In this document: piece after piece, positions 3 to 15,255 of the stretch
Numbering within the stretch: position 1 is the first letter of the stretch
How the letters are laid out: each line of letters opens with the position of its first letter
Assembly: GCF_029760895.1 (NCBI RefSeq)
Contig: NZ_CP121679.1
Coordinates: 868,001 to 932,000, forward strand
From: Ancylobacter sp. WKF20
GTDB lineage: Bacteria > Pseudomonadota > Alphaproteobacteria > Rhizobiales > Xanthobacteraceae
Direction: 5' to 3'
DNA: 64,000 nt
Program-made: the position numbers and the translations under genes
The notes under the pieces: model-generated
Databases searched by the model: none
What the model saw: the letters and a program-made list of their open reading frames with translations, nothing else
Told to the model about the DNA's origin: nothing

Positions 3-3000
3 GGTGACGGCAGCAGCAGCGACTATGACTTTGCCGCCGGGACGGCGAGCTTCGACATTGCGCACGTCTATACGGCGGACTCGGCCGGAGTGCCGCGCAT
101 CGTCATTCTCACGCTGAAGGATGGCGACGGCGGCAGCGACGCCACGGCGCTGTCGGTGACCGTGACCAACGCCGCCCCGGTGGTGACGGAACTCGCCGTC
201 TCCAGCGCGACGCTTGACCAGATGGAGGCGGTGCTCATCACCGGCCGCTACAGCGATGCCGGGTCCGGTGACCGGCATTCCATCACCATCGACCTTGGCA
301 ACGGCACCGTGCTTTCCGGCGCCGCTGTGAAGGTGAACACCGTGACCAGAACCTTCTCGGCGGTTGGGACCTTCCCGGTCGCCGGGGTCTACCAGATCAA
401 GGCCGTCATCGCCGACACCAACGATACCAGCTCCAAGGGCGAGCGCAGCACCAGCGTGAACGTGGTGAACCCGCAGGCCTCGATCCGCAACGTGAAGGTC
501 AATGGTGTGGATGGCACCGAGGGACGCGCCAGCGCGGCCGTGGTCAGCATCGACAAGGGTGAGGCGGTGACGGTGAGCTTCACGCTTACCGATCCAGGCA
601 AGGAGGGCAGCTACACCGTCCAGATCGACTGGCGCGATGGCCGCGGCCCGGTGACGCTCGAGGCGACGACCTCGACCTACGACGCCGCAGAGAACCTTAC
701 CGTCAACACCTACACGGCGACGCGCGTCTTCACACGCGGCGGCGGCAATGCGGCGGACCCGACTCTCTCCGGCATCGACATTCTCATGGGCGAAGGGAGC
801 GCCACGCCGATCCTCGCCGGCAGCATCGCCATTGCGGTGTTGAACGCCGCGCCGATCGTCAGCACGCTCACCGTGACACCGCAGGACACGCGCGAGTCCG
901 GCTCGGTGACGGCGACGCTGGTCTTCACCGACAGTGACGTGGACGACATCCATGGCGCCGTCTTTACCTGGGGCGATGGCAGCACCACGACGCTCGATGC
1001 AAGCGCGCGGGTGCTCGAAGTCGGCGGCGGCTATTCCTTCTCCGCTACCCATACCTATGCCGACAACGCGGCGGGCGTGGCCAACTATGTCGTCTCCGCC
1101 ACGGTGACGGATCAGGATTTCGGCACCGCCACCAGGACGGCACTGGCGCCGGTCGCCAATGAGGCGCCGTCCACCCTGGTCGTCGCTCTGGACGAGAGTC
1201 GGGTGGTCGAGGGTGACTATGTAACCCTGCGCGGCAGCTTCGTGGATGCCGGCCTCCTGGATACGCACAGTGTCACCATTGACTGGGGCTTCGGCACCGA
1301 CGCGGTACGCTACGAGACGGTCACCCTGAACGGGGGCGAGCGCAGCTTTGTGGTGCAGCACCGCTATGGCGAGGGTCTGCGCGTCGCCAGCGGCGCGGTG
1401 CCCCTCGCGATCGCCATCAAGGTTGAAGACAAGGATGGCGGCGCGGGCGAGGCGCGCCTGGCGCCGGAGGTGGCGAGCGAACCGCCGAGCCTGACCGGCC
1501 TCAAGCTCGACACGCCCACGCTGGTCGAGGGCGGTTTTATCCGGCTCACCGGTCTCATCGAGGACGCCGATGTCTCGGACACGCACAGCCTCGTGATCAC
1601 CTGGGGCGATGGGGCGGTGGAGACGGTGGCCATCAGCGCGGCCGACCGAGCCATAGACCTGAAACACCGCTATGCCCAGGACGCGAAGACTGCGCTCGGC
1701 TCCGATAGCTACGCGATCTCGGTGCGCGTCACCGACGCTGTCGGCAAGAACGCCACGCAGGATCTAGCGGTGGCGGTAACCAATGCCGCGCCGCAGCTTG
1801 GCTCGGTCAACCTCACCGGCATTGTCGCCGAGAACGGCACAGTCACGCTCACCGGCAAGGTGACCGATGCCGGCCGGCTTGATGTGCTCAGCCTCGTCCT
1901 CCTCTGGGGTGACGAAGCGGCGGGCGCGAGCCCGGTCACGGTCGACCTCGTGCCGGATGGCAGTTTCACCGCCTCGCATCGCTATCTCGACGATGCCCGC
2001 TCGGCTGGCCTTGAGGCGGACAGCTACACGGTGACGCTGAGCGCCGGCGACGGCGTGACCCAGACCGTGACCACCCGCGCAGTGACCGTCACCAATGTCG
2101 CGCCGGTTCTTAACGATGTCGCGGTCACCTCCACCATCGACGAGAACGGCACTGTCACCTTGACCGGCACCGTGACCGATGTCGGCACGCTCGACGGCCA
2201 TGTGCTGACGATCCTGTGGGGCGACGAGGCCGAGGGGGGCGTGGGTCAGAGCGTGACGGTGGGTGCCGACGGCACCTTCCGCGTGACGCATCGCTACCTC
2301 GACGATGCCTTGTCCGCCGGTAGCAAGGTCGACAGCTACACCGTCGCCCTCCGCGTGACGGACGAGGCGGGCGACGATGCGACCGCCTCGCGCAGCGTCG
2401 TGGTGGTCAACACCGCCCCGAAGCTCACCGACATCGCGATCACCAGCGCAGTGGACGAGGGCGGGTTGGCCCGCTTGACAGGCGTGATCGTCGACGAGGG
2501 CTCGCTGGATACCCATGTACTGACCGTCGACTGGGGCGACGGCACGGTGCGCGACTACAGCTTCACCGCTGGCCGCGCCATCGATCTGACCCATGCCTAC
2601 GCCGATGATGGCCGCAGCTTCGGCAATCTCACCGACAGCTACACGGTGAAAGTGGCGGTGAAGGACAATCGCGATGCTAGCTCGGCGGTTTCCGAGGCCA
2701 GCGTGCGGGTCGACAATGTGGCGCCGGAGTTCCACCAGGTCACCGTGACCTCGGCAATCGACGAGAACGGCATCGTCACGCTCACCGGGCGGATCAGCGA
2801 TGTCGGCGTCAATGACAGCCATCTGCTGACCGTGTTCTGGGGCGACGAGACCCTTGGGGCGACGCCGGAAATCGTCACGCTCACGGTGGATGGCAGCTTC
2901 ACCGTCACGCACCGCTATCTCGATGATGGCCGCTCCTTCGGACTGGCGACGGACAGCTATGCGGTCAGCCTCACGCTCACCGACAATGCGGGCGCAAGCG

Positions 3001-4805
3001 TCGGGGCCGGGGCTGCCGTGCAGGTCTCCAACGTCGCGCCGGAACTGTCGGACATCATCCTGACGCCGGAAATCGACGAGGACGGCACGGTGACGCTGAG
3101 CGGACGGGTCAGCGATGTCGGCTCGCTGGACAGCCATGTCATCACCGTGCTGTGGGGCGATGAGTCCCTGGGCGAGATGGGTGAGGTGGTTACGCTCGCG
3201 GCGGATGGCACCTTCACTGCCGCTCATCGCTATCTCGACGATGCCCGCTCCTTCGGCCTTGAGGCTGACAGCTACACGGTTCGCATCACGGCGGTGGACG
3301 ACGCCATTGGCGATAACGTGGCGCGGGAGGATGTTGAGACGGCGCAGGTTCTCGTGCGCAACGTCGCACCGAGCCTCCCGACGGTCGCGGCGACGGCTGA
3401 GATCGACGAGAACGGCATTGTCACTCTCACTGGGACAGTGGCGGATATTGGCAGCCGCGACACGCATGAGGTCGTCGTCGACTGGGGTGACGGCGAGGCT
3501 TCGCTGGTAACGGTTGACCCGCTCACCCGCAGCTTCAGCGTCGAGCACCGTTATCTGCAGGACGCACCGACGGCCCTCGGCACGGAGCGCTACACCATCG
3601 CCGTCACCTTGGCCGACAATGCCGGCGCCACAGCGACGGCCGTGCTGGAGACGACGGTCAACAATGTGGCGCCGGTGCTGGCCGATATTGCCTTCGTCCG
3701 GCGCGGGGCGATCCTGCCGGGCGCGGTCGATCTGAGCGGGCGCGTCACCGATGTCGGCCTCAAGGACATTCATCAGGTGAGCATCGACTGGGGCGACGGG
3801 CGGTCGAGCACGGTCGCGGTCGATCCGGTGACCGGCACCTTCGATGTCCGGCACTTCTTCGGCCGCAGCGGCGCCTTCAACGTAACCATCACCGCCATGG
3901 ACGATGCTGGCGATGTTTCGGAAGCGCTGTCCATCGTCATGACGGTCACCGTGCCCGATCTGACCGCCACGCTGGAGCCGAATATCGACGGGGCGCCGGC
4001 CGGCTCCACCGGAACGGATGAAGGCGCGGCGGCACCGGGCGAAGATGGTCCTGGCGACGACGGGACCGATACCGGCGTCCAGTTCGGTACCCCGCCGAGC
4101 TTCGGCTTCTTTGGGCGTGACGGCGCCGAGGACGGGGCCGATCCGGAAGGTGACGGGCAGACGATCCGCTTCAATCTGGAAACCCCGAGCGGCGGGCGGT
4201 CTCCCTCGCAATTCGGTGGGGCGGGCCCGACGATCGAGCCCGGTTCTGGGGCGCCCGCATCCACGGGTGGGAGCAGCGGATCGGGCCAACCGGACGAGAC
4301 TCCGGCGGGCAATCAGGGCCAGCTTCGCGAGGAGGGTGTGCCCGCTACTCAGGGACAGTTCCCCCCGGAGGGCGATCCCGCCTCGCGCGGCGCCGCGCTG
4401 CCCCCGCCGACACGTCTCGCGCTGGCCTCGGCATCCGGCATTGTCTTGCCGGAACTCGCGGTCATGCACCCCTTCGCCAGCGCCGCAACGCTGGCGCCGA
4501 GCCTGGAGGCGGTCATCGCGCTGCGTCCGGCAGTGGCGCCGCATGGCGAGGCTCCGGGGATGGACGCGGATTACCGCGACAGGCGCGACGCGGAACCGTT
4601 CGTCGGGGGCGCCTCGCTTGCCGCCGGAGGGCTGTTCGCGCTCACCGCCGACCGAGCCTCGGCGCGTCACCGCCGCAAGCGGGCGCAGGCCCTGCGTGAG
4701 GCGCTCGGCCTGCCCGTGAATGATGCGTGGGAAGTTCCCCATCCCTCCGCCGCGCCATTGGCGGGTTGGGGCGAGAGGGTAGATGTTTCACAGGATTGGC
4801 GCTGA
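3..4805 (+). CDS. Giant PKD/Ig-like repeat surface protein, C-terminal part (5' end outside window)
   Basis: The frame is open from the first bases of the window, so this is the last 1600 residues of a larger protein; the GTG at 90 is an internal Val codon. I count about twelve tandem units of roughly 105 residues, each with a PKD-like WGDG or WGDE turn, and most with an HRYLDD-like strand and a conserved DENGTVTLTG opening. From about 3960 to 4420 the protein becomes Gly/Pro/Asp-rich and disordered-looking. The tail has a short hydrophobic stretch (about 4598-4645) followed by an Arg/Lys cluster (RHRRKR). No RTX nonapeptides or beta-barrel are visible. PKD arrays are typical of extracellular adhesins. 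The following genes (SapC-like, HlyD-like, M50, SecA-like) suggest dedicated export. Cell-surface or secreted location is inferred; the N-terminal signal cannot be seen. Confidence 0.85.
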   Translation, partial: GDGSSSDYDFAAGTASFDIAHVYTADSAGVPRIVILTLKDGDGGSDATALSVTVTNAAPVVTELAVSSATLDQMEAVLITGRYSDAGSGDRHSITIDLGNGTVLSGAAVKVNTVTRTFSAVGTFPVAGVYQIKAVIADTNDTSSKGERSTSVNVVNPQASIRNVKVNGVDGTEGRASAAVVSIDKGEAVTVSFTLTDPGKEGSYTVQIDWRDGRGPVTLEATTSTYDAAENLTVNTYTATRVFTRGGGNAADPTLSGIDILMGEGSATPILAGSIAIAVLNAAPIVSTLTVTPQDTRESGSVTATLVFTDSDVDDIHGAVFTWGDGSTTTLDASARVLEVGGGYSFSATHTYADNAAGVANYVVSATVTDQDFGTATRTALAPVANEAPSTLVVALDESRVVEGDYVTLRGSFVDAGLLDTHSVTIDWGFGTDAVRYETVTLNGGERSFVVQHRYGEGLRVASGAVPLAIAIKVEDKDGGAGEARLAPEVASEPPSLTGLKLDTPTLVEGGFIRLTGLIEDADVSDTHSLVITWGDGAVETVAISAADRAIDLKHRYAQDAKTALGSDSYAISVRVTDAVGKNATQDLAVAVTNAAPQLGSVNLTGIVAENGTVTLTGKVTDAGRLDVLSLVLLWGDEAAGASPVTVDLVPDGSFTASHRYLDDARSAGLEADSYTVTLSAGDGVTQTVTTRAVTVTNVAPVLNDVAVTSTIDENGTVTLTGTVTDVGTLDGHVLTILWGDEAEGGVGQSVTVGADGTFRVTHRYLDDALSAGSKVDSYTVALRVTDEAGDDATASRSVVVVNTAPKLTDIAITSAVDEGGLARLTGVIVDEGSLDTHVLTVDWGDGTVRDYSFTAGRAIDLTHAYADDGRSFGNLTDSYTVKVAVKDNRDASSAVSEASVRVDNVAPEFHQVTVTSAIDENGIVTLTGRISDVGVNDSHLLTVFWGDETLGATPEIVTLTVDGSFTVTHRYLDDGRSFGLATDSYAVSLTLTDNAGASVGAGAAVQVSNVAPELSDIILTPEIDEDGTVTLSGRVSDVGSLDSHVITVLWGDESLGEMGEVVTLAADGTFTAAHRYLDDARSFGLEADSYTVRITAVDDAIGDNVAREDVETAQVLVRNVAPSLPTVAATAEIDENGIVTLTGTVADIGSRDTHEVVVDWGDGEASLVTVDPLTRSFSVEHRYLQDAPTALGTERYTIAVTLADNAGATATAVLETTVNNVAPVLADIAFVRRGAILPGAVDLSGRVTDVGLKDIHQVSIDWGDGRSSTVAVDPVTGTFDVRHFFGRSGAFNVTITAMDDAGDVSEALSIVMTVTVPDLTATLEPNIDGAPAGSTGTDEGAAAPGEDGPGDDGTDTGVQFGTPPSFGFFGRDGAEDGADPEGDGQTIRFNLETPSGGRSPSQFGGAGPTIEPGSGAPASTGGSSGSGQPDETPAGNQGQLREEGVPATQGQFPPEGDPASRGAALPPPTRLALASASGIVLPELAVMHPFASAATLAPSLEAVIALRPAVAPHGEAPGMDADYRDRRDAEPFVGGASLAAGGLFALTADRASARHRRKRAQALREALGLPVNDAWEVPHPSAAPLAGWGERVDVSQDWR

Positions 4806-4807
4806 TT

Positions 4808-4825
4808 GAGGTAATTTAATACCTC
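4808..4825. other. Small inverted repeat after the giant protein gene
   Basis: GAGGTA and TACCTC form a perfect 6-bp inverted repeat around a 6-base AT-rich loop, 3 bp after the stop codon of the PKD-repeat gene and about 50 bp before the SapC-like gene. It could be a weak terminator or a protein-binding site. There is no T-run after it, so read-through into the next genes is likely. Confidence 0.3.
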
Positions 4826-4878
4826 GATCGAATGCCTGTCCCCGGCCTTACGGTTCTCAAGAAACGGATCGACGAGAT

Positions 4879-5652
4879 ATGTCCGACCTGCCGCTGTTTT
4901 ATTCTTCGGTGGTGCCGCTCGACAGCCAGGCGCACCGCTCCCACCGCATCGCCACGGCGCAGGCTCCCTTCGCCTTCGCCGCCGGGGCGCATCTCATTCC
5001 GGCGGTGGTCGACGAGTTCGCGGCGGCAGCGCGGGAAATCCCGGTGGTGTTCGCACCGGCCGGCACGCGGTATGCGGCGGTGTTTCTGTGCGGGTTGAAG
5101 CCGCAGAGCAACCTGTTCGTGGATGCGCAAGGTCGGTGGACCGGCACCTATCTGCCGGCCTATCTGCGCCGCTATCCCTTCATTCTGGGCGAGCGGCAGG
5201 GGGGCGATCCGCTTGTCTGCGTTGATACGGGCTTTGCCGGCTTCGCCCCGGATGAGGACGGGCAGGCGCTGTTCGACGCGGAGGGCAAGGCGACGCCGGC
5301 TCTGAACGCCATGGTGAAGCTGGTGACGGACTACGCCACTTCCGCCAAGCGCACCGAGCTTCTGGGCAGCAAGCTGCAGGAATTCGACCTTCTGCGCAGC
5401 GTGACCATCGATGTGCAGGGCGCCAATGGCCCGAGCGCGAGCATTCACGGGTTGTCGATCGTCGACGAGGCCAAGTTCGCGGCTCTGCCCGACGCGGCGC
5501 TGCTGGAGCTGCGGCGGCTGAACCTACTGGGCGCGATCTACGCGCATCTGTTCAGCGTCGGCGCGACGCAGACGCTGTCGGCCAAGCTGAAGGCAAATGA
5601 AGCGACGGCCGCAGAGACTGGCGCAGACGCTTACGACAAGAGCGCGGCCTGA
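4879..5652 (+). CDS. SapC family protein
   Basis: 257 residues. The sequence fits the SapC family (named from the Campylobacter S-layer secretion locus), with the family's YLRRYPFIL segment and a following run on 'fidtgfagf' lines (VDTGFAGF) near residues 95-120. There is no signal peptide or membrane segment, so it is probably cytosolic or associated with a secretion machine. Biochemical role in the family is not established. It sits 73 bp after the giant repeat protein and 23 bp before the GAF/HlyD gene, inside a one-direction cassette that ends in a SecA paralogue, which supports a role in export or maturation of the repeat protein. The ATG at 4879 is preceded by GACGAGAT and gives the usual family N-terminus. 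Confidence 0.8.
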   Translation: MSDLPLFYSSVVPLDSQAHRSHRIATAQAPFAFAAGAHLIPAVVDEFAAAAREIPVVFAPAGTRYAAVFLCGLKPQSNLFVDAQGRWTGTYLPAYLRRYPFILGERQGGDPLVCVDTGFAGFAPDEDGQALFDAEGKATPALNAMVKLVTDYATSAKRTELLGSKLQEFDLLRSVTIDVQGANGPSASIHGLSIVDEAKFAALPDAALLELRRLNLLGAIYAHLFSVGATQTLSAKLKANEATAAETGADAYDKSAA

Positions 5653-5675
5653 CGGCGCAGGGGAGATCGGCGCCC

Positions 5676-7550
5676 GTGCTTCACAGTCTGCCGCGGGATC
5701 GTCACGGCCCGGAGGCCTTCGCCGAGAGCGAAGGCTGGCAGCTTCTGGGCGCCGAGGCGGGCACGCGCGCCCTTTCCGACGTCACGCAGCTGCGTCCCTG
5801 GCTGGAGGCGTGGCTTTCGCTGCAATGCGCGCTGATTGGCGATGTGGCGGCCGCCACGGTGACGCTCGACGCAGCGGTTGGCGTGTCGGTCTCCGTTTTC
5901 TGGCCGCCCGGTTCGCGCGCGTCCTATCCCGTGGAAGCCGCCGCCAGCGTCCGCACCCGTACGCGCGGCATGGTCAAGGATGAGGCGGAGGACGGGGCGG
6001 GCGCGGCGACGGTTCTGCTCGCCTTTCCGCTGATGCTCGATGGACAGGCGTTCGGCGGTGTCGCGCTTCGCCTTGAGCCGCGCTCCCCCGAAGCCCTGCG
6101 CCTCGCCATGCGGCACATGCAATGGGGCGTCGCCTGGCTGCGGGAATGGCAGGCGGGCGGGCGGCTCGACGCGCTGCGCGCCGGCGATTCCGCCGGACGC
6201 GCGCTGCTGGATCTTCTGGCCGCGGCGCTTGAACCTCATGGCCTCAAGGCAAGCGTACGCAGCCTTGCCATCGAGCTGGCGGAGCGCTTTGGCTGCGAGC
6301 GCGTCTCCGTGGGCATCGTCCGGGGCAATCACGCCACGGTGCTTGCGATCTCCCACAGCGCGAGCTTCGGCAAGGACATGAACCTCGTGCGCCTCATCGG
6401 CGAGGCGATGGACGAGGCGATTGACCAGCGCGCGCTGGTGCAGGTGCCCGCGCCGCCGGGGTCGCTGGTCGCCAGCCGGATGCATGAGCAGCTGATGCGG
6501 GGCCATGGCGCCGCGACGGTGCTGACCGTGCCGATGCCGCTGCGCGATGGCTTCATCGGGGCGATCACGCTGGAGAGGTCGGGGAGTGACGCCTTCGCCG
6601 CCGAGGATGTGCGGCTGATCGACCTGTTGGCCACTGCGCTTGCACCGATCATTGAGGAAAAGCGGCTGAATGACCGGCCGCTGGCGGTCAAGGCCTGGGA
6701 TGCGCTGCTGGCGGAGATCGGCAGGTTCACCGGGCCGCGCCATGCCCTGCGCAAGGCGTTTGCGGCGGGGGCTGTGCTTCTCCTGCTGCTCTTCACCTTC
6801 TGGTATGGCAGCTACCGCGCGACAGCCGATGCGCTGATCGAGGGGCGGGTGCAGCGTGCCATGACGGCCGGCTTCGACGGTTTCCTGCGCGAAGCTCCGG
6901 TGCGGGCCGGCGACCAAGTGCGCGAGGGCGACGAACTCGCGCGGCTCGACGATCGTGAACTGGTGCTGGAGCGGCTCCGCTGGGCGACGGAACGCCAGCG
7001 GCTCGCTTTCGAGTATGAGCGCGCCCTAGGCGAGCGCAACCGCAGCGAACTGCGCCTGCTGACCAATCAAATCGAGCAGGCCGATGCGCAAATTCAGCTG
7101 ATCGATGCCCAGATACAGCGGGCCCGGATCACCGCGCCCTTCGATGGGTTGATCGTGTCCGGTGATCATTCCCAATCCATCGGCGCGGCGGTGCAGCGTG
7201 GGCAGGTACTGTTCGAGGTCATCCCCGACGGTGGCTACCGCATCGTGCTGCATGTGGATGAGACGCAGCTTGGCGAACTGCGGCCCGGGCAGAAGGGTGA
7301 ACTTGTGCTCGCCGCCCTGCCGGGAGAAACCTTCCCTTTGACGCTCGCCCGCATCACCTCGGTCGCCGAGGCGGCGGAGGGACGCAACCGTTTCCGGGTC
7401 GAGGCGACGCCCGACGGCGCCACGCAGGAGCTGCGGCCGGGCATGCGTGGTGTCGCCAAGATCGAGGTCGGCGAGCGCCGGGTTATCTGGATCTGGTTGC
7501 GCAGCGCCATCGATTGGATGCGTCTCGCGCTCTGGCGCTGGATTCCCTGA
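5676..7550 (+). CDS. GAF-domain plus HlyD-type membrane fusion protein
   Basis: 624 residues starting at a GTG, with GGGGAG about 11 bp upstream. The N-terminal half (about 1-345) is soluble; residues about 190-330 look like a GAF sensor domain (RFGCERVSVGIV start, LTVPM core). One strong transmembrane segment lies at about 364-381 (AVLLLLLFTFWYG). The C-terminal part has the layout of HlyD/membrane-fusion proteins: a lipoyl-like half (RAGDQVREGDELARLDD), a short coiled coil, and the returning half (RITAPFDGLIVSGD) followed by a beta-barrel region. The topology therefore puts the GAF half in the cytoplasm and the HlyD half in the periplasm, so it could couple an internal signal to an envelope-spanning conduit. 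Ligand unknown. It belongs to the same cassette as the genes on either side. Confidence 0.8.
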   Translation: MLHSLPRDRHGPEAFAESEGWQLLGAEAGTRALSDVTQLRPWLEAWLSLQCALIGDVAAATVTLDAAVGVSVSVFWPPGSRASYPVEAAASVRTRTRGMVKDEAEDGAGAATVLLAFPLMLDGQAFGGVALRLEPRSPEALRLAMRHMQWGVAWLREWQAGGRLDALRAGDSAGRALLDLLAAALEPHGLKASVRSLAIELAERFGCERVSVGIVRGNHATVLAISHSASFGKDMNLVRLIGEAMDEAIDQRALVQVPAPPGSLVASRMHEQLMRGHGAATVLTVPMPLRDGFIGAITLERSGSDAFAAEDVRLIDLLATALAPIIEEKRLNDRPLAVKAWDALLAEIGRFTGPRHALRKAFAAGAVLLLLLFTFWYGSYRATADALIEGRVQRAMTAGFDGFLREAPVRAGDQVREGDELARLDDRELVLERLRWATERQRLAFEYERALGERNRSELRLLTNQIEQADAQIQLIDAQIQRARITAPFDGLIVSGDHSQSIGAAVQRGQVLFEVIPDGGYRIVLHVDETQLGELRPGQKGELVLAALPGETFPLTLARITSVAEAAEGRNRFRVEATPDGATQELRPGMRGVAKIEVGERRVIWIWLRSAIDWMRLALWRWIP

Positions 7551-7565
7551 TCAGGCAGGGCATTC

Positions 7566-9716
7566 ATGGCCGTTTCCCACCACAGCCCCTCCTGGTACCG
7601 CGTCTGCGGGCTGCGCCCTCGGCTGCGCGCGCATGTGCAGATCCACCGGCAGAGCTTCCGCGGTACCGTCTGGCATGTCGTGCAGGACACCCAGTCGGGT
7701 CGGTTCCACCGCCTGTCGACAGCCGCCTATCACCTTGTCTGCCTGATGGATGGGAGACGGACGGTTGAGGAGATATGGCTCGCCGTGTGCGAGCGGATGG
7801 GCGCCCAGCAGCCAACGCAGGAGGACGTGGTGCGGCTGCTCTCCCTGCTGCACGCTGCCGACCTGACGACTGGCGGCACTGCGCCTCATCTCGACGATCT
7901 CACCGAGCGCGAGCGTGCCAAGAGCCGTCAGGACATGTGGTCCCGGGTGCGCAATCCGCTGGCGATCCGTCTTCCGCTGGTGGATCCCGACCGGTTCCTG
8001 ACCGCCACATTGCCCTTTCTGCGGCCGCTCTTCACGCGCTGGGCGCTGGTTGCCTGGAGCGTTCTGGTGCTCATTGGCGCGGTGCTGGCGGCAGTGAACT
8101 GGGACGCCCTGATGGCGTCCGTGTTCGAGACCGAGTTTCTGGCGCAAAACATCGCGCTCGCCTTGCTGATCTTTCCCATCGTGAAGCTCGTTCACGAGCT
8201 TGGGCACGGCTACGCGACCAAGATGTGGGGCGGGGAGGTGCATGAGCTCGGCGTCATGCTGTTGGCCTTCATGCCGGTGCCCTATGTCGATGCCTCGGCC
8301 TCGACCGCCTTTCGCGAACGCGGCCGCAGGGCCGTGGTGGGCGGGGCAGGGATCATTGTCGAGCTGGCGATTGCCGCCCTCGGCATGATCGTCTGGGTGC
8401 TGGCGGAGCCGAGCCTTGTCCGCGCGGTGGCGTTCAACGTGGTGCTGACCTGCTCAGTCTCGACGCTCGTCTTCAACGCCAACCCGCTGCTGCGCTTCGA
8501 CGGCTATTATGTGCTGAGCGACCTGATCGAGGTGCCCAATCTCGCCCAGCGGTCCAATCGCTACATCATGCATCTGATCCAGCACCGGCTGTTCGGTCTG
8601 CCGGACCTCGAATCGCCGGTGGAGGCGCCGGGCGAGCCGCTGATCTTCGTCGTCTACGCGGTTGCCTCCTTCATCTATCGCACGCTGGTGATGGTAGGTG
8701 TGGCGCTGTTCATCGCCACGCATTTCTTACTGATCGGCGTGCCGCTGGCCATCGCCAGCCTTGTGACGGCAATTGTCTGGCCACTGATGAAAGGGCTGCA
8801 CTATGTGCTGGCCGATCCGCGGCTCGGGGCGCATCGCCGACGCGCGGTCATAGTGAGCGGGCTCGGCGTCGGAATCCTTCTTGTGCTGCTCCTCGCTGTG
8901 CCGCTCCCCTATGCCACCCTCGCGCAAGGCGTGGTGTGGGTCGCCGACGATGCGGCGACGGTGCGCGTGCGCAGCCCGGGCGTGGTTGCCGCCGTGCCGG
9001 CCGGCGATGGGAGCAAGGTGGATGCTCAGGCCCCGCTGATCGACCTCTATGATCCCGTCCTCGCGATCAAGGCGCGCATCGCCGAGAAGCAGCTGGAGGA
9101 ACTGCGCATCAAGCTGGAGGCGCTCGACCTGACGGACCGGGTCGGCGGCAACATCCTGCGCGAGCAGATCCGCGAAAGCGAAGCACAGCTTGCCGATATG
9201 CGCCGCCAAATCGACGATCTGGCCCTGCTATCCCCGGCCGAAGGCCGGCTTCGGCTGCTTGACGCCACCGACCTGATGGGCCGCTACCCCCGCAAGGGCG
9301 ACGTGGTCGGCTATGTCGTCAGCGGGGAGGGGCCGGTCGTGCGGGCCTTCGTGCCGCAGAGCGAGATTGACCTTGTGCTGCGCCATACCAGCGCCGTCGC
9401 CGTCCGCCTTGCCGCGGACAAATCCCGTAGCCTTCCGGCGCAGATCGAGCGCCAGGTGCCGGCTGCGGTGACGGAGCTGCCACATCCAGTGCTCGCGCCG
9501 GGGGGCGGTGGCAGCCTGCTGGTCGACCCGAATATGCCGGGCCGGCTGAAGCCACTCGACACGCTGTTCGAGGTGGATCTACGCGTCAGCGGCCTGCGCG
9601 ATGACGCGCCGCTCGGCATGCGGGCTTATGTGCGCTTCCAGCATCCCCCGGAGCCGATCGCCCTTCGCTGGATACGGGACCTGCGCCAGCTCTTCCTGCG
9701 GCATTTCGATGTCTGA
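7566..9716 (+). CDS. PqqD-like / M50 site-2-type metalloprotease / HlyD-type fusion protein
   Basis: 716 residues with three parts. Residues about 20-105 resemble a PqqD-type winged helix (peptide-binding chaperone fold). Residues about 150-430 form an M50-like membrane metalloprotease: HELGH at 210-214 gives the two His ligands and the Glu, and NPLLRFDGYY near 306-315 supplies the Asp ligand; several hydrophobic helices surround them. Residues about 440-690 resemble an HlyD-type adaptor with a coiled coil and a lipoyl-like segment (RVRSPGVVAAVPAGDG). M50 enzymes cleave substrates within membranes; with the HlyD part this suggests processing coupled to export of the giant repeat protein (inference). 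The stop codon overlaps the start of the SecA-like gene within ATGTCTGA, indicating translational coupling. ATG at 7566 chosen; it lies 15 bp after the previous stop. Confidence 0.8.
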   Translation: MAVSHHSPSWYRVCGLRPRLRAHVQIHRQSFRGTVWHVVQDTQSGRFHRLSTAAYHLVCLMDGRRTVEEIWLAVCERMGAQQPTQEDVVRLLSLLHAADLTTGGTAPHLDDLTERERAKSRQDMWSRVRNPLAIRLPLVDPDRFLTATLPFLRPLFTRWALVAWSVLVLIGAVLAAVNWDALMASVFETEFLAQNIALALLIFPIVKLVHELGHGYATKMWGGEVHELGVMLLAFMPVPYVDASASTAFRERGRRAVVGGAGIIVELAIAALGMIVWVLAEPSLVRAVAFNVVLTCSVSTLVFNANPLLRFDGYYVLSDLIEVPNLAQRSNRYIMHLIQHRLFGLPDLESPVEAPGEPLIFVVYAVASFIYRTLVMVGVALFIATHFLLIGVPLAIASLVTAIVWPLMKGLHYVLADPRLGAHRRRAVIVSGLGVGILLVLLLAVPLPYATLAQGVVWVADDAATVRVRSPGVVAAVPAGDGSKVDAQAPLIDLYDPVLAIKARIAEKQLEELRIKLEALDLTDRVGGNILREQIRESEAQLADMRRQIDDLALLSPAEGRLRLLDATDLMGRYPRKGDVVGYVVSGEGPVVRAFVPQSEIDLVLRHTSAVAVRLAADKSRSLPAQIERQVPAAVTELPHPVLAPGGGGSLLVDPNMPGRLKPLDTLFEVDLRVSGLRDDAPLGMRAYVRFQHPPEPIALRWIRDLRQLFLRHFDV

Positions 9717-11718
9717 GCCGGTTGATGGATGGGCGATGGGGCCCCTGCCAAGCCCAGTGCTCTATGCCGAGCGTTCCAGCGAGCCGCCGCGCCGGGCCGA
9801 CCGGCTGCTCAAGCGCCTTGAAGGCTTGGTCATTCCCCACTTTGCCGGCCGACGGCAGGCGCAGCTCGCCCGCATCGTGCCCCTGGTTCATGCCGCCGCG
9901 GCCGAGTTGGAGGGGGTGGGTGAAGATGAGGTCGCCAGCCGCGCGCGGGCTATGGCGGGGCGACTGCGGCGCAGCCGGAGCCCGGCGATGGAGGATATCG
10001 CCGCGACCTTCGCTCTGGTGAGGGAGGTTTCCGGCCGCACGCTCGGCATGAAGCATCATGATGTCCAGCTCATGGGCGGGTTTGCCCTGATGAGCGGTAT
10101 GGTCGCCGAGATGAACACAGGCGAGGGCAAGACGCTCACCGCCACGCTCGCCGCGGTCACAGCGGCGCTCGCCGGCAAGCCGGTGCATGTGGTGACGGTG
10201 AACGACTATCTCGCCCGCCGCGATGCGGAAAAGCTCGCGCCCATCTTCGGCTTCTTCGGCCTCTCCGTCGGTGTCGTCGCCGCCGGCATGGAGCGGGAGG
10301 CACGGCGCGCGGCCTATGCCTGCGACGTGACCTACTGCACCAATAAGGAACTGGCGTTCGATCACCTCAAGGATCGGCTGGTCCTTGCCGGAGCCGGCGG
10401 CAATCTGCGCCGCAAGATGCGTTTCGCCGGGATGGGGACGGGTGGCGATGCGCCCGGCCGTGATCTTCTGTTGCGGGGTTTGCATGTCGCGATTGTCGAT
10501 GAGGCCGACAGCGTGCTGATCGACGAGGCGCGAACGCCGCTCATCCTCTCCGGGGAGGTTGAATCCGCTGCCGAGGCGGAATTGCTTCGCCAGGCGCTGG
10601 CGGTGGCCCAAGCTCTGAGGGCAGGGCACGACTACGTCCTCGTCGCCCATCAGAGCCGGATCGACCTTACCGAGGTTGGTCGCAAGCGTCTGGATGGCGA
10701 GGCGGCGGCGCGGGGCGGCCTCTGGCTCAACCAGGTGCTGCGCGAGGATGTGGTGGTCAAGGCGCTGACCGCGCTGCATGTGATGCTGCGGGGCGAGCAG
10801 TACATCGTCCGTGACGGCAAGGTGGAAATCGTCGATGAGTACACCGGCCGCATCATGGCCGAACGCTTCTGGAGCGATGGGCTTCACCAGCTCGTGGAAC
10901 TGAAGGAGGGCGTATCCCTCTCCCCGCGCCGTCGCACGCTGGCCCGCATGACCTATCAACGTCTCTTCCGCCGCTACGAGCATTTGTGCGGTATGTCGGG
11001 CACGGTGGCGGAGGTGGCGGGCGAACTCTGGGAGGTTTATGGCCTGCGCATCGCGCGGATTCCGACACACAAACCACCACGGCGGAAGTTGGTCACGGAT
11101 GTCATCCTTCCACGTTCGCAGGAGCGCTGGAGGACGGTCGCCCAAATCGCCGCGCGTTTCCAGCGCCAGCAGGTGCCCCTGCTCATCGGCACGCGCTCTG
11201 TCGCGGCCTCGCTGGAGGCCAGTCACCATCTGAGCGAGGCCGGTGTGGTCCATCAGGTGCTCAACGCCACTGACGAGGCCGCGGAGGTCAGCATCGTCGA
11301 GAAGGCGGGCCATGCCGGGCAGGTTACGGTCGCGACCAATATGGCCGGCCGCGGTACCGACATTCCGCTCGGCCCGGGCGTCGCCCAGCGGGGTGGGCTG
11401 CTGGTGTTGATGACGGAGCGGCACGATTCTGCCCGTGTCGACCGCCAGCTCGCGGGCCGCACCGCGCGTCAGGGCGACCCCGGCGTGTTCGTCGCGGTGC
11501 TGTCGCTTGAGGACAAGCTTCTGGCCGACTGCCCGCTGCTGTCGGTGCGCCTTGCTGCGAGGCTCGCCGCGCGATGGGGCTCTGCGCGCCTTGCCCGCCT
11601 CGCCATGCGCCTCGCTCAGCGCCATGCCGAGCGCGATCACGCCCGCATCCGCCGCCAGCTGCTTCAGGCCGATGAGGCGCTGGAATCCGTGCTGGCGATT
11701 ACCGGCACGCTGGAATAG
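9709..11718 (+). CDS. SecA-like preprotein translocase ATPase (short accessory paralogue)
   Basis: 669 residues. Clear SecA motor motifs: GGFALMSGMVAEMNTGEGKT with the Walker A at 135-142, VDEADSVLIDEARTP (DEAD at about 264), the TNMAGRGTDIPLGPGV segment, and GRTARQGDPG in place of the usual GRSGRQGDPG. It is about 200-230 residues shorter than housekeeping SecA and ends without the Cys-rich zinc-binding tail; the region after the second motor domain is reduced to an Arg-rich helical end. I chose the ATG at 9709 because it overlaps the stop of the M50/HlyD gene by 8 bp; an in-frame ATG further upstream would lie deep inside that gene. Context points to an accessory ATPase dedicated to the giant repeat protein rather than the general secretion motor. 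Confidence 0.88.
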   Translation: MSEPVDGWAMGPLPSPVLYAERSSEPPRRADRLLKRLEGLVIPHFAGRRQAQLARIVPLVHAAAAELEGVGEDEVASRARAMAGRLRRSRSPAMEDIAATFALVREVSGRTLGMKHHDVQLMGGFALMSGMVAEMNTGEGKTLTATLAAVTAALAGKPVHVVTVNDYLARRDAEKLAPIFGFFGLSVGVVAAGMEREARRAAYACDVTYCTNKELAFDHLKDRLVLAGAGGNLRRKMRFAGMGTGGDAPGRDLLLRGLHVAIVDEADSVLIDEARTPLILSGEVESAAEAELLRQALAVAQALRAGHDYVLVAHQSRIDLTEVGRKRLDGEAAARGGLWLNQVLREDVVVKALTALHVMLRGEQYIVRDGKVEIVDEYTGRIMAERFWSDGLHQLVELKEGVSLSPRRRTLARMTYQRLFRRYEHLCGMSGTVAEVAGELWEVYGLRIARIPTHKPPRRKLVTDVILPRSQERWRTVAQIAARFQRQQVPLLIGTRSVAASLEASHHLSEAGVVHQVLNATDEAAEVSIVEKAGHAGQVTVATNMAGRGTDIPLGPGVAQRGGLLVLMTERHDSARVDRQLAGRTARQGDPGVFVAVLSLEDKLLADCPLLSVRLAARLAARWGSARLARLAMRLAQRHAERDHARIRRQLLQADEALESVLAITGTLE

Positions 11719-12057: not shown

Positions 12058-12483
12058 GCGGACACCCGCGAATGCCTGGCGCTTGTCGTCGACACCTCGC
12101 TCTCCGGCCAACGGGTCGCCCGCGAACTCGATGCCCTCATCGACCTTCGCGGCCGGCCGCTGATGGTCGTCAGCGACAACGGCACCGAGCTGACATCGCG
12201 GGCAATCCTGCAATGGCAGGAGGATAGCCAGGTCGAGTGGCACTACATTGCGCCAGGCAAGCCGATGCAGAACGGGCTTGTCGGGAGCCTGAATGGTCGC
12301 TTCCGGGACGAATGTCTGAACGAGCACATGTTCCATAACCTGCCGACCGCTTGCAGGCTGATCGAAGAATGGAGGATGGACTACAATGCCCACCGGCCGC
12401 ACACGAGCCTTGGCGGCCTCACCGCAAACGAGTTTGCAACCCGGTCCAGGACGGACCACATCGAGAACAGAGTCCAGTTATGA
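12058..12483 (+). pseudogene. IS3-family transposase orfB fragment (C-terminal part, inactive)
   Basis: The frame that ends at 12483 reads [14 protein letters not shown], then SDNGTELTS and [14 protein letters not shown], the integrase core of IS3-family OrfB, and continues to a natural C-terminus. The N-terminal half, orfA and the left end are missing; readable similarity starts near 12058. The catalytic Glu of the DDE triad, expected 36 residues after the Asp of SDNG, is Gly (GGG at 12283-12285), whereas the related element at 31 kb has Glu there. It is therefore both truncated and catalytically dead. It lies against repeat copy A, with a matching IS end at 12498. Confidence 0.85.
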
Positions 12484-13749: not shown

Positions 13750-15255
13750 ATGCCCGCATCCGATGAAGCGCTCCTCGCCACCGGCATCGCCAAAACCTAT
13801 GGCGCAACCTGCGCGTTGCGCGATGCGCGGCTTACCCTACGGCGCGGGCGCGTGCATGCGCTGCTTGGCGAGAACGGCGCGGGAAAGTCCACAATGGTCA
13901 AGATCCTTGTCGGCGCGGTGACGCCCGATGCCGGCCGCCTCGATCTGAACGGCGCACCCGCCGCCTTCGGCTCCGTGACGCAGGCGATCCGTGCCGGCAT
14001 CGTACCGATCCACCAGCACCTCAGCCTGTTCCCGGAATTGAGTGTGCATGAGAATCTCTCGGCGTTCGCTCTGGCCGGCGGCGGCGGACTCTGGGCGAGG
14101 TGGCATCTCGTCGATCCCGCCCGCGCCCGCGGCTGGCTGGCCGAGGTCGGTCTCGATGTCGATCTTGCCGCGCCGCTTGGCACATTGTCGCTTGGCGAGC
14201 GCCAGTTGGTCGAGGTGGCTCGCGCGCTCAGCCTCGACTGCCGCGTGCTGGTGCTCGACGAGCCGACCGCCGCACTCAATGCCGGCGAGGCCGAACGGCT
14301 GTTCGCCGTTGTGCGCCGGCTCTGCACGAACGGGACGGCGGCGCTGTTCATCTCCCATCGCTTCGACGAGATCGAGGCGCTCGCCGACGATGTCACCGTA
14401 TTGCGCGATGGCCGCACGGTGATCGACGCCGCGCCCATTGGTCGCCACAGCCGCGAGGAACTGACCCACGCCATGCTCGGAGCGGGGATCGAGGCCGTAC
14501 CGGAACGCCTCAGCGCGCGTGCCGAGCCGGTGCTGGTCGGGCGGGGTTTTGCCGGCCATCGCGACGCAGGCGGCGGCACCGACGTAACGGTCCATGCCGG
14601 TGAGATCGTCGGGCTGGCCGGCCTGATCGGCTCCGGTGCGCTCACCCTCGCCGCGTGGCTGGCCGGCGCGCAGGACGGCGCGGGAGAGCTTTCGGCGGCG
14701 GGCCACGCCTTCACACCCGGCGACCGCAGACGGGCGGCGGCGCTCGGCATCGCCTATGTCCCCGCCGATCGTCACGTCGACGGCCTGTTCGCGCCGCTCT
14801 CGGCGCGGCGCAACGTCTCGGTCTCAGCGCTTGGCCATCTGGCGCGTCTTGGCTGGCTGCGCGCGTCCGAGGAGGCGGAGCGGATCGACCCGCTGCTCCG
14901 CCGCCTGAAGCTGCACCCAGCGCATCCCGAGGCGGACGCGCGGACCTTCAGCGGCGGCAATCAGCAGAAGCTGCTCATCGCACGATGCCTCGCTCTGCCG
15001 GGACTGAAAGCGATGGTCCTTCTGGAGCCGACACGCGGGGTCGATGTCGCGGCGCGCAGCGTCATCCACGATGCCATCCGCGAAGCCGCCGCAGCGGGTA
15101 TCGCGGTCCTGATCGCGACCAGCGACCTCGACGAGCTTATGGTGCTGGCCCATCGCTACCTCGTGGTGCGTGACCACAGGCTTGCCGCCGAGCTGCCACA
15201 GGACGCCCCGCGCGCGGCGCTGCTGGCGGTACTGTCCGGGAGCGCCGCGGCATGA
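13750..15255 (+). CDS. Ribose-type ABC importer, ATP-binding protein (two ATPase domains)
   Basis: 501 residues with the duplicated layout of RbsA/MglA-type ATPases. Domain 1 has Walker A GENGAGKST (about residues 38-46), signature LSLGERQL and Walker B VLVLDEPTAAL. Domain 2 keeps the signature FSGGNQQK, but its Walker A region reads GLIGSGALTL and its Walker B reads MVLLEPTRGVD, where the usual Asp before Glu is Leu; the second site is thus degenerate, as is partly usual in this family. It energises import through the two permeases that follow. The next gene starts inside its stop region (ATGA, 15252). Substrate is probably not a simple sugar, given the downstream enzymes (inference). Confidence 0.92.
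   Translation: MPASDEALLATGIAKTYGATCALRDARLTLRRGRVHALLGENGAGKSTMVKILVGAVTPDAGRLDLNGAPAAFGSVTQAIRAGIVPIHQHLSLFPELSVHENLSAFALAGGGGLWARWHLVDPARARGWLAEVGLDVDLAAPLGTLSLGERQLVEVARALSLDCRVLVLDEPTAALNAGEAERLFAVVRRLCTNGTAALFISHRFDEIEALADDVTVLRDGRTVIDAAPIGRHSREELTHAMLGAGIEAVPERLSARAEPVLVGRGFAGHRDAGGGTDVTVHAGEIVGLAGLIGSGALTLAAWLAGAQDGAGELSAAGHAFTPGDRRRAAALGIAYVPADRHVDGLFAPLSARRNVSVSALGHLARLGWLRASEEAERIDPLLRRLKLHPAHPEADARTFSGGNQQKLLIARCLALPGLKAMVLLEPTRGVDVAARSVIHDAIREAAAAGIAVLIATSDLDELMVLAHRYLVVRDHRLAAELPQDAPRAALLAVLSGSAAA

Follow-up and report, generated by a model that had tools for sequence, protein, structure and literature searches.

Five same-strand genes of Ancylobacter sp. WKF20, located in a window of 64,000 nt (bases 868001–932000 of the single 4.63 Mb contig of this genome, here G000), probably encode a dedicated, leader-guided trans-envelope exporter for giant surface proteins. 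In such a machine a protein combining PqqD-like, M50 protease and HlyD parts would be the invariant hub, and a short SecA the usual motor. Leader, hub and giant very likely form one unit; with somewhat less confidence, it is likely that the set exports the giant, which is the natural reading of the adaptors, TolC and cargo. A first-pass annotation had singled out the five genes as a linked, dedicated system and had guessed at an N-terminal LEPR-XLL-type motif. Both ideas stand, with parts for cytosol, membrane and periplasm all present, whereas its proposal that SecA is the general driving force of export is not supported in that form. The features of the locus are as follows, the last lying outside the window.

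3..4805, + strand: giant PKD and LktA-type repeat protein, C-terminal 1600 of 8452 aa (Pfam, frame extended upstream)
4879..5652, + strand: SapC-family protein (PF07277, 2.4e-62)
5676..7550, + strand: GAF-HlyD protein (GAF domain 195-323; hydrophobic window 357-375; HlyD-type periplasmic adaptor 391-590)
7566..9716, + strand: hub, PqqD-M50-HlyD (PqqD-like domain 37-100; MacA/MexA-like adaptor domain 447-697)
9709..11718, + strand: short SecA, 669 aa (NBD1, PPXD, NBD2 and part of the scaffold helix)
9709..9716, + strand: 8-bp overlap between hub end and SecA start, as noted in the first-pass annotation (coordinates)
G000 846108-846878, opposite strand to the giant: small HlyD (own-genome match to a relative's small HlyD)

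The frame of the giant extends from a likely ATG at G000 847447 to 872805 (8452 aa), starting 20.5 kb before the window. Its N-terminus, also outside the window, reads MAPRERRSALRLEALEPRLLLSA and constitutes a LEPR-XLL leader (NF012209, 24 bits for a cut-off of 17); it is the sole NF012209 match in the genome and places the giant in this curated family. Residues 1-3500 contain LktA-type tandem repeats in 11 stretches and the later part contains PKD domains above cut-off (PKD_4 at 75 bits in the window portion), in agreement with the initial description as a PKD-repeat protein. The giant has zero cysteine in its 8452 residues, and those of relatives are almost cysteine-free (41 in 69,719 residues of 30 fragments, versus 0.73% in the system's own proteins). 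A Kyte-Doolittle scan, which is not a dedicated predictor, detected no transmembrane segment or signal-like hydrophobic stretch (highest 19-residue mean at the N-terminus 1.46), and a classical signal peptide or membrane anchor was dropped as a candidate. Type I export through RTX repeats was likewise dropped: there is no RTX array, GGxGxD occurring only six times, scattered along the chain, and Pfam, the sole barrel test, gave no beta-barrel domain. By these tests the giant shows neither of the export signals of its own that would have spoken against the initial proposal. The giant C-termini of some relatives (L102, L107) have an RTX-like look. A common C-terminal signal was rejected, since GhhxW, the sole motif looked for, is present in 8 of 31 giant C-termini, within their last 60 residues (e.g. 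L081, L100 and L087).

Related loci fall into type A, that of Ancylobacter, and type B, described below. The LEPR-XLL leader consists of a basic stretch, judged by eye, followed by [FLVI][ED]xLEPR-x-LLSAD. A script read 33 of the 39 N-termini submitted to it (31 type-A genomes, 2 type B). LEPR is present in 33/33, and E or D stands two residues before it in 31/33; after LEPR comes any of LYVIF, then L (31), L (32), S (28), A (29) and D (29). This conservation is partly due to selection, because all N-termini were picked with the NF012209 model. Several genomes (G231, G235, G214, G195) encode multiple giants, with up to five LEPR-XLL matches. In the accessible parts of the literature, LEPR-XLL is reported for a Limnohabitans transcript and for a Vibrio giant whose C-terminus carries RTX.

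Hubs of relatives were collected from one genome per species with an alignment of 21 hub proteins (A1), and the best 80 of 482 relatives were used, so that the sample leans to closer relatives. The genes are not scattered: the core of GAF-HlyD, hub and SecA, hereafter the cassette, is syntenic and inherited together in Alpha-, Beta-, Gamma- and Deltaproteobacteria and in Nitrospira. GAF-HlyD lies immediately upstream of the hub in 79/80 loci (the exception, L126, has 249 bp upstream) and a SecA match lies downstream in 78/80, with 6 of these 78 frames running off the contig end. The two loci lacking this match are L073, which ends ~40 bp past the hub, and L094, with none alongside the hub in a genome that carries a second, complete cassette. 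The 8-bp overlap recurs in 49 of these 78 loci, a count that leaves out L070 and L106, where the frames open further down. Pairwise distances of SecA, hub and GAF-HlyD correlate in mirror-tree comparisons (r 0.82-0.88, 66 loci, 0/1000 permutations each). With models built from the same locus set, a small periplasmic HlyD was found in 56/80 loci (52/66 where 3.5 kb or more lies downstream), DUF3467 in 33/80 and SapC in 26/80, its position being between hub and SecA in 11 loci. The small HlyD of Ancylobacter (174 bits, next best 35; Pfam HlyD) lies ~0.6 kb before the giant's ATG; the locus therefore has three HlyD-type proteins, the two announced for the window, both confirmed by their domains, and this third one.

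Leader and cassette also coincide across genomes. LEPR-XLL was matched in 46 of 50 cassette genomes searched (50 of the 80), and the 63 matches lie in open frames with a median of 8616 aa (49/63 at least 5000 aa, longest 15167 aa). For 20 hub coordinates picked because a giant looked close, 19 hubs were on the assumed contig, and the giant frame ends within 12 kb in 19/19 and within 2.6 kb in 15. From the order of a Methylobacterium genome, chosen as the centre genome because it has the system, an even sample of 199 genomes was drawn. LEPR occurs in 7/199, a hub above 400 bits in 6 and an accessory SecA (E up to 1e-112) in 6, and these are the same six genomes, all among the seven with LEPR. 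Without the centre genome the counts are 6, 5 and 5 of 198 (hypergeometric 2.5e-9, kinship ignored). A hub match of 156-214 bits is found in a further 14 genomes of this sample. In a class sample, LEPR occurs in 2/192 genomes (G000 and G040) and a hub at E<=1e-20 in 10/192, all except that of Ancylobacter at 149-201 bits. An initial idea that the class sample was gammaproteobacterial was dropped: the closest named proteins belong to Roseixanthobacter and Aquabacter, and identical M50 match coordinates in G058 (order of G000) and G280 (order of the Methylobacterium genome G195) make an alphaproteobacterial origin within that order most likely. Collectively, the co-occurrence tests indicate that the gene set is more than a chance association.

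The hub contains a PqqD domain (PF05402, 27.8 bits for a cut-off of 23.4), seven hydrophobic windows and an M50 part that Pfam scores slightly under cut-off (24.6 versus 27.2 bits). The M50 site is intact, as first described, with HEXXH at 210-214 and NPLLRFDG at 306-313. HEXXH is present in 80/80 related hubs and NPLLRFD, NPLLRYD or NPLLKFD in 80/80, the next residue being G in 75 and A in 5. The adaptor parts show the barrel-sandwich and hairpin fold of HlyD/MFP adaptors. Among NCBIfam models the best matches are the daptide protease (161 bits, cut-off 300), which covers hub residues 18-411, i.e. the PqqD front and the M50 part, and the epipeptide protease (37 bits, cut-off 225). These relatives raise the alternative that the protein matures a small ribosomal peptide, as in the RiPP-like (ribosomally synthesized and post-translationally modified peptide) daptide and epipeptide loci, the giant being a mere neighbour. 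A radical-SAM cluster in 9/80 loci, of which one member was scanned, points the same way. This reading is very improbable: leader and cassette coincide in the 199-genome sample, and giants adjoin the hub in two separate locus types. Unlike the daptide and YydH-LiaK proteases, which it resembles in its PqqD and M50 parts, the hub stays under the curated cut-offs, has a HlyD domain and is linked to proteins of 5,000-15,000 residues. The scanned radical-SAM protein (PF04055, L062:15007-17739) is accompanied downstream of the L062 cassette by two proteins without Pfam match (clusters c4, c8, c12); a modification of the cargo by this neighbour is possible.

The short SecA is a SecA paralogue with NBD1, PPXD and NBD2, as seen by Pfam and structure (SecA_DEAD 1.2e-98, on a longer frame from 9601), and its motor motifs GEGKT, DEAD and AGRGTD are intact, as the initial annotation had it. 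Motor and clamp are kept, and the wing domain, the two-helix finger and the C-tail are gone: after AGRGTD there are 126 residues in short SecAs versus 396 in housekeeping SecAs (medians; 59 and 52 sequences). The model aligns to Clostridioides difficile SecA2 (6sxh) only up to residue 606 (611-616 by sequence), short of the wing and finger. The C. difficile protein is reported to keep both the wing domain (626-705) and the two-helix finger (706-781) (PMC7503281). Identity to solved SecA2s is 36-37% in the aligned part, and the short SecA also superposes on SecY-bound SecA (6itc) with a root-mean-square deviation of 2.9 over 593 residues. It scores far under the cut-offs of the four listed SecA2 curated models and of the housekeeping SecA models. 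In a FastTree phylogeny (601 columns), from which three SecA frames <300 aa and the 1436-aa frame of L107 were excluded beforehand, 75 accessory SecAs (2 degenerate) separate from 52 housekeeping SecAs with support 1.0. Given this clean split, it is ruled out that each host derived its short SecA separately from its own SecA. GEGK[TS] (Walker A) persists in 75/78 SecA matches, one of the other three being cut, which implies that ATPase activity is usually selected for; motor motifs are retained in nearly all intact copies.

Type B differs in its composition. It comprises TolC, two HlyDs and a divergent hub (~24-34% identity) next to a DUF4347 giant whose leader is of a related kind, LExR. The seventh LEPR genome of the even sample, G263, has such a divergent hub, as does G040, where the giant is on a different contig; G195 has hubs of both types. 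The leader LExR-[IMVF]-x-[FYL]-D-[AG] was read on the giant frame in 11 of 18 type-B loci fetched; in the other 7 the sequence stops short of the giant's start, its frame is ambiguous or no giant is visible. Two HlyDs precede the hub (Pfam on L185, partly L187), and an outer-membrane efflux protein (OEP) precedes the HlyD pair in 7/9 loci scanned, the exceptions being L191 (phosphotransacetylase) and L186 (cytochrome bd). The three giants scanned combine DUF4347 with cadherin/Ig repeats. No ABC transporter was seen among the further type-B neighbours scanned, which do not include every open reading frame.

Several observations weigh against a SecA-driven exporter, or against parts of it. Blast of the loci revealed no accessory SecA alongside type-B hubs, and the single type-B hub scanned with Pfam gave no PqqD match. 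LEPR-XLL was not matched in 4/50 cassette genomes (G193, G204, G219 and G230), although in G193 (locus L050) the giant frame runs off the contig. OEP/TolC stands beside type A in only 4/80 loci, all of the Nitrospira group; the OEP model was built from three of these four, so that others may be missed, and TolC in the Ancylobacter genome was not sought. Finally, degenerate SecAs occur in L089, L111 and a second Thioclava locus, and the single SecA_DEAD match of the L111 genome (G237) is the housekeeping one:

L089:11793-13265: degenerate SecA-like protein without GEGKT and DEAD, otherwise intact cassette
L111:12133-13737: degenerate SecA-like protein without GEGKT and DEAD, otherwise intact cassette
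L261:2798-4708: degenerate SecA-like protein without GEGKT and DEAD, otherwise intact cassette

The SecA-free type B and the three degenerate copies, together with the missing two-helix finger, speak against the earlier view of SecA as general driver and against SecA as an obligatory motor. In type A it is likely a feeder, which is not a general need. The same facts suit two other explanations. In one, which is unlikely, the giant crosses the inner membrane via SecYEG and housekeeping SecA, the cassette processes it (M50) and carries it over the periplasm and outer membrane, and the short SecA serves as holdase or adaptor; the persistence of the degenerate copies as long open frames and the superposition on SecY-bound SecA are in line with this, but the giant lacks a hydrophobic N-terminal signal and the conserved GEGK[TS] speaks for a working ATPase. 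In the other, less probable still, the SecA-like ATPase serves the giant as a clamp or in quality control, and the energy for export comes from folding outside the cell or from the proton gradient. Loss of the wing domain and finger, and of the ATPase motifs in three loci, agrees with a clamp; conversely, the motor motifs survive in nearly all intact copies and the SecA start so often overlaps the hub end. A leader-guided exporter with SecA as its usual motor is the preferred reading.

For this exporter, we infer leader recognition, cleavage, conduit assembly, SecA feeding and surface location of the cargo. By analogy with RiPP systems, where leader peptides are held by PqqD-like domains, the cytosolic PqqD-like domain of the hub may bind the giant's leader, which the M50 site would then take off; both roles are drawn from what these families do elsewhere. 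Hub, GAF-HlyD and small periplasmic HlyD would make up the inner-membrane and periplasmic section of a conduit terminating in a TolC-type channel. In type A, the short SecA may clamp the long cysteine-free chain and feed it into the conduit using ATP. Ordinary SecA inserts its two-helix finger into SecY, and loss of wing and finger favours a partner other than SecYEG. It is tempting, if tentative, to go further and propose a SecY-independent exporter, in which the short SecA, stripped of its SecY-docking and SecY-entering parts, docks on the hub and threads LEPR giants of 5,000-15,000 residues through the HlyD-TolC conduit in one step, type B being the same hub without SecA. If true, this exporter and type B would represent a new type of secretion system with its own leader code (LExR).

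The set shares features with known systems. HlyD/MacA/MexA-type adaptors, a giant repeat, adhesin-like cargo and, in most type-B loci scanned and the Nitrospira group, a TolC-type channel recall type I and other tripartite exporters built on membrane fusion proteins and outer membrane factors. The energised parts of tripartite exporters are reported to be ABC, RND and MFS transporters (PMC8277102). Here, in contrast, the inner-membrane part is PqqD-M50-HlyD, the leader is N-terminal and this giant has no RTX array. None of the five genes is an ABC transporter, nor is any scanned member of the recurrent neighbouring clusters, which do not cover every neighbour and leave room for an unlinked ABC protein. 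As in Gram-positive accessory SecA2 systems, whose cargo is a large surface protein, a second SecA paralogue lies next to a large surface protein; unlike SecA2, it forms its own clade apart from housekeeping SecA, has neither wing nor finger, stays under the cut-offs of the four SecA2 curated models listed and has HlyD and M50 partners. LEPR-XLL, to which this giant belongs, and DUF4347, found in the three type-B giants, are both cargo families, and no text was found tying either to an exporter. No description of the system was found either, subscription papers being mostly outside the search. Because it lacks defining traits of type I and accessory SecA2 systems and the literature search was blank, the gene set looks like a dedicated exporter not described so far. 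Such giants rank with the largest proteins of bacteria, and the export route of most is an open question; with its leader motif, its invariant hub in the membrane and a pared-down SecA that is optional, the set offers a concrete, testable machine for it. A finger-less SecA would also probe which SecA parts are required to move a chain.

Some neighbouring genes complete the picture. EAL-domain (cyclic di-GMP) proteins lie near the cassette (L121:2948-5203 and L123:6135-7343; cluster c14, 4 loci). Downstream of the Ancylobacter cassette, an ABC gene (window 13750-15255) followed by permease-like frames looks like sugar uptake. Transposase-type pieces at window 12063-12334 and G000 845555-845826 (90% identical over 276 bp, same direction) bracket the entire 34-kb locus, small HlyD included. 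A third copy (74% identity, G000 843258-843519) lies inside an rve-type gene, with a resolvase at 839197. Given this flanking transposase-type DNA, the locus may have been acquired as a mobile piece.

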